64,000 bases of DNA from Ferrimonas marina (GTDB lineage Bacteria; Pseudomonadota; Gammaproteobacteria; Enterobacterales; Shewanellaceae): NCBI RefSeq assembly GCF_900129905.1, contig NZ_FQXG01000005.1:398735-462734 (forward strand), written 5' to 3'. Shown here in pieces: positions 1 to 55,657 of the stretch. Position numbers and translations under genes: made by a program. The notes under the pieces were generated by a model that saw only the letters and a program-made list of their open reading frames with translations, was not told where the DNA came from and did not search any database. How positions within the stretch are numbered: the first letter of the stretch is position 1; every line of letters starts with the position of its first letter.

Positions 1-42
1 GGTGCTAGGTGCTAGGTGCTAGGTGCTAGGTGCTAGGTGCTA
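1..42 (+). repeat. Heptamer tandem array (GGTGCTA)6, cut by the window edge
   Basis: Six perfect head-to-tail copies of GGTGCTA, followed by the partial unit GGTA. The window starts exactly inside the array, so six is a minimum and the gene to the left is unseen. The same unit occurs at 20023-20064 and 54232-54392. No spacer separates the copies, so this is not a CRISPR. Confidence 0.95.
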
Positions 43-46
43 GGTA

Positions 47-11526: not shown

Positions 11527-13416
11527 TTACAGGGTCAACTTGCGGATATCGCTGAGGTAACCCGCCAGGGTTGAGCTGAAGCGGGCACCGTCGGCACCGT
11601 CGATCACCCGGTGGTCGTAGGACAGCGACAGCGGCAGGGTCAGACGCGGCACGAACTCCTTACCGTTCCATACCGGCTTCATCTCCGATTTGGAGACCCC
11701 GAGGATGGCCACTTCCGGCGCATTAACGATGGGGGTAAAGGCAGTACCGCCGATGCCACCCAGGCTGGAGATGGTGAAGCAGCCGCCCTGCATATCACCG
11801 GCGGTCAGCTTGCCACCGCGGGCCTTCTTGGAGATCGCCATCAGCTCCTGGGACAGCTCGTAGATCCCCTTCTTATTGACGTCGCGCACCACGGGTACCA
11901 CCAGGCCGTTGGGGGTATCCACCGCCACACCGACATTGATGTACTTCTTGAGGATGACGCTCTGGCCGTCTTCGGACAGGGAGCTGTTGAACTGGGGCAA
12001 GTCCGCCAGGGTCTTAGCCACCGCCTTGAGGATGAACACCAGCGGGGTGATCTTGAAGCCCAGCTCCTGCTTGGCCACCACGGCGTTTTGCTCCTTGCGG
12101 AACGCCTCCAGCTCGGTGATGTCCGCCTCGTCAAACTGGGTGACGTGGGGGATCATCGCCCAGTTGCGGGCCAGGTTGGCGCCGGAGATCTTCTTGATCT
12201 TTGACAGCGGCTTCTCTTCCACCTCGCCAAACTTGGCGAAGTCCACCTTGGGCCAGGGGATCAGATCCAGGCCACCACCATTGCCCGCCGGGGCTGAAGC
12301 CACCTTGCCGGACTGCACCTGAGCCAGGGCCGCCTTAACGTAAGCTTCCACGTCCTCTTTGAGGATCCGGCGCTTGCGACCGGTACCGGTCACCCGGGAC
12401 AGGTCAACACCCAGCTCACGCGCCATGCGGCGGATCACCGGGGTGGCGTAGGCGTAGGCACTGTTTTCGATAAAGCCGGTGCCCGGTTCAGTATGTGCCA
12501 CCTGATCGGAGGCCACCGGGGCCGGGTGCGGCATCTTGCCCTTGGGCTCATCCGCCGGAGCGGGGGCCACCGGAGCCGGTGCAGGGGCTGCACCAGCCAC
12601 CTCGAACTCCATGATCAGGCTGCCGGTGGAGACCTTGTCACCCACGGCAATGGTGATGGCCTTCACCGTGCCGGCGAACGGCGCTGGCACCTCCATGGAG
12701 GCCTTGTCGCCCTCCACGGTGATCAGGGATTGCTCCTCCTCGATGCTGTCGCCCACGGCCACCAGCACCTCGGTCACTTCCACCTCGTCACCACCAATAT
12801 CCGGCACCGCAACGCTTTGTACGCTGGTGCTGGCCGGGGCCGCCGGTGCAGCAGCGGCAGCCGGAGCGGCCTCGACTGGGGCCGCGCCGCCCACTTCGAA
12901 CTCCATGATCAGGCTGCCTGTGTTGACCTTATCGCCCACCGAGATGGTGATGGATTTCACCGTGCCGGCGAAGGGGGCCGGGACCTCCATGGAGGCCTTG
13001 TCGCCCTCCACGGTGATCAGGGATTGCTCCTCCTCGATCTGGTCACCCACCGCCACCAGGATCTCGGTCACCTCCACCTCGTCGCCACCGATGTCCGGCA
13101 CCGCAACGGATTTCACCTCGGAGGCTGCTGCCGGGGCCGCGGCGGCCGGAGCCGGTGCCGCTGCTGCGGCAGGCTCGGCTGCGCCTTCGGCTTCAAACTC
13201 CATGATCAGGGAGCCAGTCACGACCTTGTCGCCCACCGCTACCTTGATCGCCTTGACCACACCGGCCTGGCTGGCCGGCACCTCCATGGAGGCCTTATCG
13301 CCCTCCACGGTGATCAGGGATTGTTCCTCTTCGATCCGGTCGCCCACGGCCACCAGGATCTCGGTCACTTCAACTTCGTCAGCACCAATATCGGGTACGT
13401 TGATTTCAATAGACAT
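11527..13416 (-). CDS. aceF: Pyruvate dehydrogenase E2, dihydrolipoamide acetyltransferase
   Basis: Core E2 component that transfers acetyl groups from E1 to CoA. The 629-residue protein carries three lipoyl domains (about 1-75, 103-174, 202-272), each with the lipoylated Lys in EGDKASMEV (41, 140, 239), joined by Ala/Pro-rich swinging linkers. The E1/E3-binding domain is at about 323-361 ([15 protein letters not shown]) and the catalytic domain ends with DHRVIDG (601-607). Three lipoyl domains are also found in E. coli AceF (630 residues). The gene starts 14 bp after the aceE stop, consistent with co-transcription. The three lipoyl-coding segments are very similar at DNA level, a substrate for unequal recombination. 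Confidence 0.97.
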
Positions 13417-20017: not shown

Positions 20018-20022
20018 GCGCA

Positions 20023-20064
20023 GGTGCTAGGTGCTAGGTGCTAGGTGCTAGGTGCTAGGTGCTA
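20023..20064 (+). repeat. Heptamer tandem array (GGTGCTA)6 after nadC
   Basis: Six perfect copies starting 5 nt after the nadC TAA and reading GGTGCTA in the sense of nadC. The array precedes the nadC terminator, so it is probably transcribed as the 3' UTR. Same unit and orientation rule as the array after dolP. Confidence 0.95.
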
Positions 20065-20157
20065 GTAGGGAAGTAATCCTTAAATCACCCAAAAGTACGA
20101 CCACCCTAGCCAAAAAATGCATCCGACACCGAATGAAATAACAAAATGCAAATAGTC

Positions 20158-20182
20158 AATCCCCCTGATGGGGGATTTTTTG
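20158..20182 (+). terminator. Rho-independent terminator of nadC
   Basis: AATCCCCC-TGAT-GGGGGATT followed by TTTTG. It lies about 140 nt after the nadC stop and separates nadC from pilA. Confidence 0.88.
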
Positions 20183-20368
20183 TTCGTTTATTATTTTCTA
20201 AGGATCGGGAATAAATTGGAACACTTGCCCAGCCAGAGCCTCCAAACTAAGAACGATCCGGAGACTGAATTACTAAAAGCCAGGATCTGATCGCAACTTT
20301 CCCGGTTCTCACCTGCCTAGTTGTTACCATTGCGTTATAAAAAACAGTTGAATACACTCGTTTTTGTA

Positions 20369-20419
20369 CCTCTCAAGTGTGTTGCATCCATGCAAATTTG
20401 AGAGGCAGCGTGACGTCAC
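20369..20419. promoter_or_regulatory. Nested inverted repeats in the pilA upstream region
   Basis: Outer arms CCTCTCAA (20369-20376) and TTGAGAGG (20398-20405) enclose inner arms TTGCAT and ATGCAA separated by two bases. A perfect 10-bp palindrome, GTGACGTCAC, follows at 20410-20419. They end about 80 bp before the pilA start, so they may be operators or a folded leader. I found no convincing sigma-54 -24/-12 pair here and cannot place the promoter. Confidence 0.5.
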
Positions 20420-20497
20420 CAGGCAAGCTTCAGCACGGTTTGGTCGGACGCTTCAACCAACTTGAGACACGGATATCCATTCTGGACGGAGATGATG

Positions 20498-52731: not shown

Positions 52732-53665
<934 letters not shown>

Positions 53666-53668
53666 GCC

Positions 53669-54232
53669 ATGTGGCGTGCGATAGGGATATTGCTGGTGGT
53701 CACCCAATTGGCGGGTTGTGCCGGAGCGATCATGGCCGGTGCCGTGGGTGGTGCGGTGATGGTCAACGACCGCCGCTCGATGAGTACCCAGATCGATGAC
53801 CATGCCTTGGAGGTGCGCATCGCCTCGGCCCTGCGGGGCGAGGAGGATCTGCGCGCCCAGGCTCGGATCAGCGCCATCAGCATGAATCAACAGGTGCTGC
53901 TGGTGGGCCAGGTGCCCACCCCGGTGCTGCGTGACAAGGCGGTGCGCATCGTCAGCCAGGTTGAGGGGGTCACCGTGGTGCACGACCAATTGCGCCAGGG
54001 CAGCCCGGTGGGCTTTACCACCAAGAGTAATGACACCTGGATCAGCACCAAGGTGAAATCTCGCATGTTCAGTGACGGCGAGCTGGATGCCCTACGCATC
54101 AAGGTGATCACCGAGAACGGTGAGGTGTTCCTGCTCGGCCTGGTGGACCGCCAGGAGGCCGATCTGGCGGTGGACGTGGCCCGCACCACCGCCGGGGTGC
54201 GCAAGGTTGTGAAGGTGTTCGAGTACCAATAG
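53669..54232 (+). CDS. dolP: Outer-membrane lipoprotein DolP with two BON domains
   Basis: DolP (YraP) supports outer-membrane integrity and localises to division sites. The 187-residue product has a lipoprotein signal peptide with the lipobox LAGC (mature Cys about 17), and two BON domains (about 45-112 and 122-187). The ATG is 3 bp after the diaA stop. Its TAG stop (54230-54232) runs directly into the first unit of the heptamer array, sharing the G. Confidence 0.95.
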   Translation: MWRAIGILLVVTQLAGCAGAIMAGAVGGAVMVNDRRSMSTQIDDHALEVRIASALRGEEDLRAQARISAISMNQQVLLVGQVPTPVLRDKAVRIVSQVEGVTVVHDQLRQGSPVGFTTKSNDTWISTKVKSRMFSDGELDALRIKVITENGEVFLLGLVDRQEADLAVDVARTTAGVRKVVKVFEYQ

Positions 54233-54392
54233 GTGCTAGGTGCTAGGTGCTAGGTGCTAGGTGCTAGGTGCTAGGTGCTAGGTGCTAGGTGCTAGGTGCT
54301 AGGTGCTAGGTGCTAGGTGCTAGGTGCTAGGTGCTAGGTGCTAGGTGCTAGGTGCTAGGTGCTAGGTGCTAGGTGCTAGGTGCTAGGTGCTA
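54232..54392 (+). repeat. Heptamer tandem array (GGTGCTA)23 directly after dolP
   Basis: Twenty-three perfect copies (161 bp) with no mismatch, beginning in the last base of the dolP stop codon. Every unit carries CTAG across the junction. The periodicity of seven places TAG in all three forward frames every 21 bp, and likewise on the other strand. The GG every seven bases also fits a two-layer G-quadruplex pattern. Copy number in an assembly may be collapsed or expanded. Confidence 0.97.
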
Positions 54393-54604
54393 GGCAGGCT
54401 AGCCTAGAGCTCGAACCATCACCGTCAACGACTTTCCTTAGCTCTTCCTATCTCCTGCTCCTCCTAGTACCCAGAAGGGCTTTGCCCGGCCTAGTACCTT
54501 TCCTTCCAACGCTCTTCCTAGCCTCTAGAAGGGCTATGCCCGGCCTAGTGCCTGCCTTTTCCTAGAAGGGCGCAGCCCGCCCCAGTAGCTAGCAGCCTCA
54601 GCGC
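54393..54604 (+). repeat. Degenerate CTAG-rich mosaic with three GGGC/GCCC mini-hairpins
   Basis: After the perfect array come three related pieces: AGAAGGGCTTTGCCCGGCCT, AGAAGGGCTATGCCCGGCCT and AGAAGGGCGCAGCCCGCCCC, each with a GGGC-3 nt-GCCC hairpin and bordered by CTAG. Between them lie pyrimidine-rich stretches (CTCTTCCTA, CTTTCCTTCC). CTAG occurs repeatedly. I see no gene here. Confidence 0.75.
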
Positions 54605-54607
54605 CAT

Positions 54608-54637
54608 AAAAAAGCCGCCCATCGGGGCGGCTTTTTT
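54608..54637. terminator. Bidirectional terminator between dolP and trpS
   Basis: AAGCCGCCC / GGGGCGGCTT with six A before and six T after, so it works on both strands. It is 13 nt from the trpS stop and about 380 nt from the dolP stop. Confidence 0.92.
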
Positions 54638-54649
54638 GTGGCTCAGCGC

Positions 54650-55657
54650 TTAACGCGGCATCGGCGGCAGGCCGACTGCCTCGTACACCTTGGCTAGGGT
54701 GGCAGCGGCTCGCTCGCGGGCGTTCTCTGCGCCGCGCTTCATCACCGCATCCAGGTAGGCCTGATCGGCACGGATCTCTTTGAAGCGCTGCTGCATCGGC
54801 TCCAGCATCGCCACCACGGACTCGGCCGTAGCCACCTTGAGGTGGCCATACATCTTGCCCTCGAACTCCGCCTCGATCTCGGCAAAGCTCTTGCCAGAAG
54901 TGGCGGAGTAGATGCTCATCAGGTTAGAGACGCCGGCCTTGTTTTCCAAGTCGTAGCGCACCACGGCCGGATCGTCAGAGTCGGTTACCGCCTTCTTGAA
55001 CTTCTTGGTGATCACCTTGGGATCTTCCAGCAGGCCAATGCGGTTGTTGGCGTTGTCGTCCGACTTGGACATCTTCTTGGTCGGATCCTGCAGGCTCATC
55101 ACCCGGGCCCCGGTTTGCGGGATGTGCGGCTCCGGAATCGCAAACACCTCACCGTACAGGTTGTTGAAGCGAGTGGCGATGTCGCGGGACAGCTCCAGGT
55201 GCTGCTTCTGATCGTTGCCGACCGGCACCTCGTTGGTCTGGTACAGCAGGATGTCGGACGCCATCAATACCGGGTAGCTGAACAGACCAGCGTTGATGTT
55301 GTTGGCGTGGCGTGCGGACTTGTCCTTGAACTGGGTCATCCGGTTCAGTTCACCCATCTGGGTGTAGCAGTTGAGGATCCAGGCCAGCTGGGTGTGCTCC
55401 TGCACATGGGACTGCACGAACACGGTGCTCTTATCGGGATCGATGCCAATGGCCAGGTACAGGGCCAGGGTATCCATGCAGGCGTTTTTCAGCGCTTCCG
55501 GGTCCTGGCGCACGGTGATGGCGTGCAGATCAACGATGCAGTAGAGCGCATCGTGGCTGTCTTGCAGGTTCACCCACTGACGCAGTGCACCCATGTAGTT
55601 ACCAAGGGTCAGGCCGCCCGACGGTTGGGCACCACTAAAGACGATGGGTTTACTCAT
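54650..55657 (-). CDS. trpS: Tryptophanyl-tRNA synthetase
   Basis: Class I synthetase charging tRNA-Trp. The 335-residue protein (334 in E. coli) has the HIGH-equivalent [12 protein letters not shown] near residue 12, the tryptophan pocket DLHAIT, and KKMSKSDDN near 195. It is the last gene of rpe-gph-trpS; its ATG overlaps the gph stop by 4 bp. Confidence 0.98.

Follow-up and report, generated by a model that had tools for sequence, protein, structure and literature searches.

In the genome of Ferrimonas marina, the stop codon of a lipoprotein gene runs directly into a long and perfect tandem array of the heptamer GGTGCTA. This raises the question of whether such an array is an accident of a single locus or one copy of something that recurs and, if it recurs, what made it grow and what placed it at the end of a gene. 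We analysed a window of 64,000 nucleotides around the site (the whole stretch of DNA, positions 398,735 to 462,734 of contig NZ_FQXG01000005.1) together with the remaining genome and the genomes of other bacteria. The array is not the lone oddity as which it had been presented in the initial annotation of this DNA; it belongs to a genome-wide family and forms part of a larger element.

Results

The heptamer array at the dolP stop codon

Tandem Repeats Finder reports for 54230-54394 a period of 7 with 23.6 copies, 100% matches and 0% indels, which together with the sequence itself confirms the perfect array that had been noted behind dolP (Table 1). The first unit read as GGTGCTA starts at 54232, where the dolP reading frame ends, and shares its G with the TAG stop codon, as previously described. 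Shuffled sequence would be expected to give 0.03 matches to two consecutive units with at most one mismatch; the window gives 32, a count that includes two other arrays. Those two arrays, at 1-45 and 20022-20065, and the conserved sequence 3' of the focal array are additional to what the initial annotation listed. The CTAG contained in each unit had been called one of the rarest tetramers of proteobacterial genomes, and the window outside the arrays agrees with this: among the 256 tetramers CTAG ranks second-rarest by count and lowest of all in observed/expected ratio (0.56). Since TAG occurs in all six frames of the array, no reading frame crosses three units. An Rfam search of 53600-55000 returned nine rows, none above the gathering score and most of them on the terminator. 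Elsewhere in the window, 12597-13392 holds an imperfect 297-bp tandem repeat in 2.7 copies, probably the repeated domains of a coding gene. The gene names used here (dolP, trpS, nadC) are presumed, dolP following the initial annotation.

Table 1. Features of the dolP locus and further GGTGCTA arrays in the window
Feature	Position	Strand	Basis or remark
dolP-like gene (presumed), lipoprotein of 187 aa	53669..54232	+	stop codon TAG at 54230-54232 common to array
Perfect heptamer array, unit GGTGCTA (= CTAGGTG)	54230..54394	+	23.6 copies
Leader GGCAGGCTAGCC..GTCAACG..TTTCCT	54393..54438	+	alignment of arrays
Hairpin module 1, CAGAAGGGC-TTT-GCCCGGCCTAG	54472..54494	+	sequence; left CTAG replaced by CCAG
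Hairpin module 2, CTAG-AAGGGC-TAT-GCCCGGC-CTAG	54525..54548	+	sequence
Hairpin module 3, CTAG-AAGGGC-GCA-GCCCGCC-CCAG	54562..54585	+	sequence
Bidirectional intrinsic terminator between dolP and trpS	54608..54637	.	first A-run 378 bp from dolP stop codon
trpS-like gene (presumed), convergent neighbour of dolP	54650..55657	-	ORF
Right part of another GGTGCTA array (= L043)	1..45	+	continues left of the window; holds 10-N scaffold gap
Third GGTGCTA array, 6.3 copies	20022..20065	+	few bp 3' of TAA 20015-20017 of a nadC-like gene (presumed)

A family of CTAGG arrays across the genome

The genome-wide search for (GGTGCTA)n proposed in the initial annotation was run on the F. marina assembly (G000; 4.98 Mb, 18 contigs). 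Three units gave 209 overlapping matches and the reversed control none; four units of the looser pattern CTAGGNN gave 299 matches (160 + 139), again with no match for the control. CTAGGNN arrays occupy at least 30 sites (30 examined, about thirty estimated), so that, as in bacterial heptamer SSR arrays, tandem 7-nt units are found at many intergenic loci of one genome. The 33 rows analysed come from a listing of 100 of the 209 places and from part of a further listing, in which C14:189 and C17:141956 are among the places left out. They reduce to 30 sites because a single degenerate array, L031, accounts for three rows and because the first array of the window is L043. The main unit is CTAGGTG in 23 of the 33 rows, CTAGGGG in five, CTAGGAG in three, and CTAGGCG and CTAGGTA in one each. 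One variant prevails within most arrays and the prevailing variant differs from array to array; mixed-unit arrays exist as well (L031, L032, L033, L155). A survey with no fixed unit found that 50 of 52 heptamer runs in the F. marina loci, which had been fetched with CTAG patterns, keep CTAGG and not GG alone. The degenerate array L031 (3830-4235; contig 6, ~20060-20465) extends over more than 400 bp with many unit variants and is possibly an old array.

The focal array is free of gaps. Four other arrays (L038, L040, L043, L063) contain a 10-N scaffold gap, and contigs C5 and C14 each terminate about 200 bp or less from an array, which makes absolute copy numbers uncertain for the long arrays of this assembly.

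A leader and CTAG-tagged hairpins follow the arrays

The arrays form the first part of a composite element, dispersed in the genome, in which the heptamer array is followed by a conserved leader and then by hairpins tagged with CTAG. Where the right edge was visible to the pattern used, 17 of 19 arrays terminate in CTAGGCA or CTAGGTA. The leader (GGCAGGCTAGCCTAAGA, about 14 variable bases, GTCAACGCTTTTCCT) was recognised 3' of 12 of the 16 F. marina arrays aligned, a hand-chosen set, after both GGTGCTA and GGGGCTA types; L064 and L170, counted among the 12, match it loosely, and it is missing at L034, L035, L037 and L042. Right of the arrays L038 and L067 we observed tandem 11-mers (CCTAGGCTCTT), also containing CTAG, within the composite element.

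The hairpin frame CTAGNAG(9-13 bases)CGCCCTAG has 12 exact matches in F. marina and none in 13 congeners; it recurs in two Shewanella-like genomes, G031 (nine matches) and G035 (six), and once in G014. The frame is a loose pattern, and its reversed control gave three matches in F. marina and zero to three per congener, and single matches of the frame consequently mean little. The stem is fully paired in 25 of the 27 matches from G000, G031 and G035, pairing not being required by the pattern, and is not fully paired in the single match from G014. Two stem pairs are changed on both sides, which 23 of 500 shuffles equalled while none reached the covariation score, in a test on 12 variants picked by hand from the output of a script that required a stem. 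The element therefore contains a conserved short palindrome with compensatory stem changes, as REP sequences do. A strict coupling of arrays and hairpins was rejected, since 4-unit arrays are lacking in the hairpin-bearing G035, and the exact hairpin frame in the array-bearing G018, G028, G029 and G055; in G029 a looser hairpin variant adjoins the array.

Arrays lie sense and close behind stop codons

Genes around the arrays were called with a custom codon-usage caller, not a standard annotator. By these calls, 20 of the 33 F. marina rows lie between convergent genes, 5 + 5 between tandem genes and one between divergent genes, and two have a gene on one side only; an array within a reading frame or promoter, typical of phase-variation contingency SSRs, was not found in this set apart from the one divergent case. 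With each site counted once and genes required on both sides, 16 of 29 F. marina sites have the G-rich strand in sense and an array start within 25 bp after the stop codon, against one site in antisense (p ~3e-4). In other genomes the same zone holds 25 of 65 sites in sense against five in antisense (p ~3e-4), this set comprising 80 of the at least 106 loci of the five-unit scan described below and nine loci of relatives, minus shared-site duplicates and arrays with genes on one side only. A random intergenic point falls within the zone 5-12% of the time. The 26 held-out scan loci point in the same direction in a small set that is not significant alone, with 7 of 12 sense against two antisense after removal of duplicates (p 0.18) and 8 of 20 against two before (p 0.11). 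Pseudoalteromonas alone has a low sense count (6 of 26, against one).

In nine of 43 listed cases one of the TAG triplets of the array doubles as the stop codon. Several F. marina arrays outside the zone (L063, L064, L066, L067) start, as judged by eye, right after a terminator-like T-run, hence again at a sense 3' end. The position within 25 bp upstream of genes on the non-coding strand is weakly represented (1 of 31 F. marina rows). Placement relative to stop codons, a check suggested in the initial annotation, is thus non-random, with the G-rich strand sense and close 3' of stop codons as in known heptamer SSRs, and this strand bias is the strongest hint of selection or of a transcription-linked process.

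The dolP site is empty in congeners

The exact patterns of three GGTGCTA or four CTAGGNN units detect no array in 13 congeners. At dolP, the site covered by our empty-site comparison, the congeners have the stop codon, a short gap and a terminator hairpin, with no array. The first A-run lies 1-32 bp from the dolP stop in 14 relatives (the 13 congeners and L098 from another genus) versus 378 bp in F. marina. In 12 of 13 congeners the sequence 3' of the terminator resembles the F. marina trpS end, an assignment based on a trpS motif in four of them and on visual inspection in the rest; the exception, G002 (L106), has other sequence there. The C-terminal residue of DolP is at the same position in 11 of 13 congeners, which indicates that the array starts at the stop codon without having shifted it.

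Perfection of the array had been taken to imply recent expansion or homogenisation. Expansion, recent or lineage-specific, gains support from the empty dolP site and the lack of arrays in the 13 congeners. Homogenisation is supported in part: one unit prevails per array and the unit is constant between genomes, but some arrays are mixed and purity is partly a matter of ascertainment (see below).

Recurrence and copy-number change in other bacteria

Going by sequence matches, the CTAGG heptamer has a patchy distribution among other bacteria, most of them marine gammaproteobacteria. Within the family, CTAGGTT arrays are present in G018, G028, G029 and G031, the last with CTAGGTG as well, and G055, from another family, carries CTAGGTG arrays; a CTAGGAT match in G053 is accompanied by one control match and was taken as chance. 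Across the order, 14 of 394 genomes, F. marina included, contain four GGTGCTA units, and none matches the reversed control; F. marina has 176 overlapping four-unit matches and the next highest genome 12. A five-unit scan of named genomes yielded at least 106 stretches. Among the 80 matches listed, 56 belong to Pseudoalteromonas, Shewanella, Photobacterium or Vibrio, and some others to distant phyla, many of these being metagenome bins and possibly misbinned. Both flanks of one G031 array match Shewanella metallivivens at 88-92%, making G031 probably a Shewanella. Some sites are common across genomes with 67-80% flank identity (L142/L207, L225/L245).

Pseudoalteromonas arrays also sit within a dispersed repeat, with flanks differing from those in F. 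marina. At L179, L180, L187, L195, L200, L229, L233, L247, L249 and L251 the array is often inside a dispersed intergenic repeat, and several of these loci have CGCGCGAAATAAATTTCACGCCTAC-like sequence to the left and CTAACAGCATAGTGTTGG-like sequence to the right of the array.

Of 19 genome pairs that share a site, 17 have different copy numbers with the unit unchanged (13 clusters; the pairs are not all independent), all 19 pairs lying outside the F. marina genome, in other genera. Since an exact five-copy query selected the loci, their purity is partly due to ascertainment; the change in length is not. The arrays thus vary in copy number between related organisms, as heptamer SSRs do. A survey of 892 kb, a sample biased by the fact that all its loci had been fetched for heptamers or hairpins, shows period 7 to be dominant among perfect tandem runs with periods of 3-15; it stays dominant without the query unit (in Pseudoalteromonas, for example, 20 other heptamers versus two octamers). 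This fits the over-representation of heptamers cited in PMC4692102 (in excerpt).

Candidate drivers

A phage or plasmid origin was rejected: a collection of viral contigs gave one match of four units (L280, 4402-4560), and neither plasmids nor phages matched the element at 54386-54605. The viral match is a CTAGGTG array that passes into CTGGGTA- and TCGGGTA-like heptamers and then into their inverted complement, together forming a large heptamer palindrome.

Several internal drivers were likewise discarded. Hairpin-driven expansion, in which a CTAG stem and a 3-nt loop would add up to seven, is not favoured by the fold energy of CTAGGTG arrays, for which comparison with 400 random heptamers as DNA and about 1500 as RNA gave ordinary values. 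All 21 genomes searched, F. marina among them, have a MutS that passes the cut-off and shows no internal stops, which speaks against loss of mismatch repair. CTAGG is the sequence context of Vsr; this enzyme is absent from F. marina but also from 12 of 13 congeners, and its loss does not discriminate.

Discussion

Origin of the array

We hold it moderately probable that the array behind dolP is one copy of the genome-wide CTAGGNN family and represents non-essential repeat DNA, grown by slippage and spread with a composite intergenic element. An intergenic element of about 370 bp (array, leader and CTAG-tagged hairpins) would have entered the gap that separates the dolP stop codon from the terminator, and its insertion may have been tolerated owing to the 3' UTR location, where it would do little harm. 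Growth and near-purity would result from slipped-strand mispairing or from unequal recombination, either in steps of 7 nt, and growth of this kind would leave repeat DNA with little or no selection for exact length. The sense-strand bias has two candidate causes: arrays in the opposite orientation may be selected against where transcripts end, or some step of array growth may be linked to transcription. The arrays may have a modest role at mRNA 3' ends, which this explanation does not need. Two observations stand against this account. The strand and stop-codon bias exceeds what pure neutrality would give unless insertion or selection is itself strand-biased, and the same heptamer in unrelated genera, at sites some of which are common to several genomes, could point to a function. 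Moreover, our searches found no enzyme able to move the composite element.

Such a function may lie in the 3' UTR, the sense GGUGCUA array acting in transcript-end formation, mRNA protection or ribosome clearance. The placement in sense within 25 bp of stop codons and, at dolP, between stop and terminator agrees with this, and so does the similar position of the Xanthomonas and Nostoc heptamers, of which those in Xanthomonas are mostly transcribed (PMC4692102, in excerpt). The UAG in each unit makes every frame meet a stop within seven codons; TAG is present in all antisense frames too, however, and a stop-trap fails to explain the bias. Sense RNA folds better than antisense in the seven unit variants seen, though the same holds for 14 of the 16 CTAGGNN units. 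Folding of GGUGCUA RNA is in itself ordinary, 28% of about 1500 random heptamers being more stable. The RNA of the focal element is no more stable than shuffles (z +1.38), which at this site gives no support to a possible giant hairpin between the array and C-rich modules; with nine array units kept and the right part shuffled, z is -1.05 for the focal element and -3.4 to +0.9 for five others in sense, and -1.0 to -3.8 in antisense. The array is missing in all 13 congeners, whose dolP manages without it, and we regard a functional 3'-UTR element as unlikely. As an element acting on gene expression, the two-layer G-quadruplex whose pattern was pointed out in the initial annotation appears very improbable: there is a GG every seven bases, and GGG/GGGG heptamers form quadruplexes in vitro (PMC4692102, in excerpt), but ViennaRNA with quadruplexes allowed predicts none for GGUGCUA x6 RNA, unlike GGGGCUA x6, and the arrays conserve CTAGG rather than GG alone (the 50 of 52 runs above, in loci fetched by CTAG). 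By this energy model the main unit lacks the quadruplex-forming property that marks one subtype of heptamers.

Clustered intergenic CTAG-tagged hairpins with compensated stems bring to mind a REP-like element moved by a Y1 (RAYT-type) transposase, with the array as a by-product, and the F. marina genome does contain a Y1_Tnp ORF and a fragment. Nevertheless, the 10 kb around this ORF hold no GGGC-NNN-GCCC hairpin and instead contain unrelated repeats, so an association of the hairpins with a Y1 transposase gene was not found. Among other genomes, a Y1_Tnp match is present in G018 and G029 (arrays) and in G035 (hairpins), but not in the array-bearing G028, G031 and G055, of which G031 also bears hairpins. 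The tag, moreover, is CTAG and not the GTAG or CGTC of REP sequences, and we judge such a transposition improbable. At the transposase locus itself (L124, 3300-6300; contig 7, ~555800-558800), the Y1-transposase-like ORF and the truncated second copy lie amid CCACTCTGACCCCTTTGGTC-type repeats, one of which is followed by five tandem units of AATAGCC, another heptamer. An assembly artefact, for which one could cite the scaffold gaps and contig ends at other arrays of this draft, we consider scarcely credible given the same-unit arrays in many independently sequenced genomes and a gap-free focal array with genes on both sides that agree with relatives.

Beyond the preferred account of slippage-grown, largely neutral repeat DNA, a more speculative and rather doubtful extension would be a modular system punctuated by CTAG, in which CTAG-GNN arrays and CTAG-NAG[stem]CGCC-CTAG hairpins, joined at CTAG, spread patchily between lineages and insert or grow in sense at the 3' ends of transcription units, through a putative enzyme or a transcription-coupled process favouring period 7. 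Two matters are unsettled (PMC4692102, in excerpt): the preference of bacterial genomes for tandem units of just seven bases, and the sense orientation of G-rich heptamers directly 3' of stop codons. In gammaproteobacteria another unit now proves to be placed in a similar way, and the unusual burst in one genome (176 matches against 12 in the next of 394), with none found in 13 congeners, allows origin, growth and effect to be tested by comparing strains and by simple deletions.

Relation to known bacterial repeats

Text searches of the literature with two-unit array strings found no relevant paper, and a search for Ferrimonas with tandem intergenic repeats found nothing. Cyanobacterial tandem heptanucleotides are named STRR; they resemble the present arrays in being tandem heptamers and have other units. 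Heptanucleotides of Calothrix are mentioned in PMC4692102 (in excerpt), which describes in Xanthomonas and Nostoc the repeats GGGAATC and GGGGA(C/T)T, with the G-rich strand sense just 3' of stop codons and a second preferred site upstream of genes on the non-coding strand; it cites heptamer over-representation and a polymerase-slippage hypothesis from earlier work and leaves the function open. Placement is alike in F. marina, where the second, upstream site is weak. The F. marina unit, CTAGGNN, differs in its palindromic CTAG core and in that no quadruplex is predicted for its main variant. The arrays of F. marina also often run into a leader and CTAG-tagged hairpins, whereas that paper reports generally no link to mobile elements, and the preference of the Xanthomonas and Nostoc heptamers for four units is a further difference.

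Direct repeats of TAACTGA in Beggiatoaceae, Cyanobacteria and Bacteroidetes (PMC4679880, in excerpt) are likewise heptamer arrays, patchy across unrelated taxa, with mostly 7-nt indels between two Cyanothece strains; they have another unit and in the BOGUAY genome lie mostly just upstream of start codons. REP super-families, defined by GTAG or CGTC tags and patchy in Shewanella (PMC3733652, in excerpt), share with the hairpins described here that they are short intergenic palindromes with an unpaired tag, clustered and patchily distributed among Shewanella species, while the F. marina hairpins carry CTAG at both ends, have no transposase link that we found and are embedded in an element with a heptamer array. 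The searched text of PMC12306157 mentions neither Shewanella nor CTAG. The array behind dolP belongs to the known bacterial heptamer arrays, and what is new about it is the CTAG core and the composite element of which it forms part.
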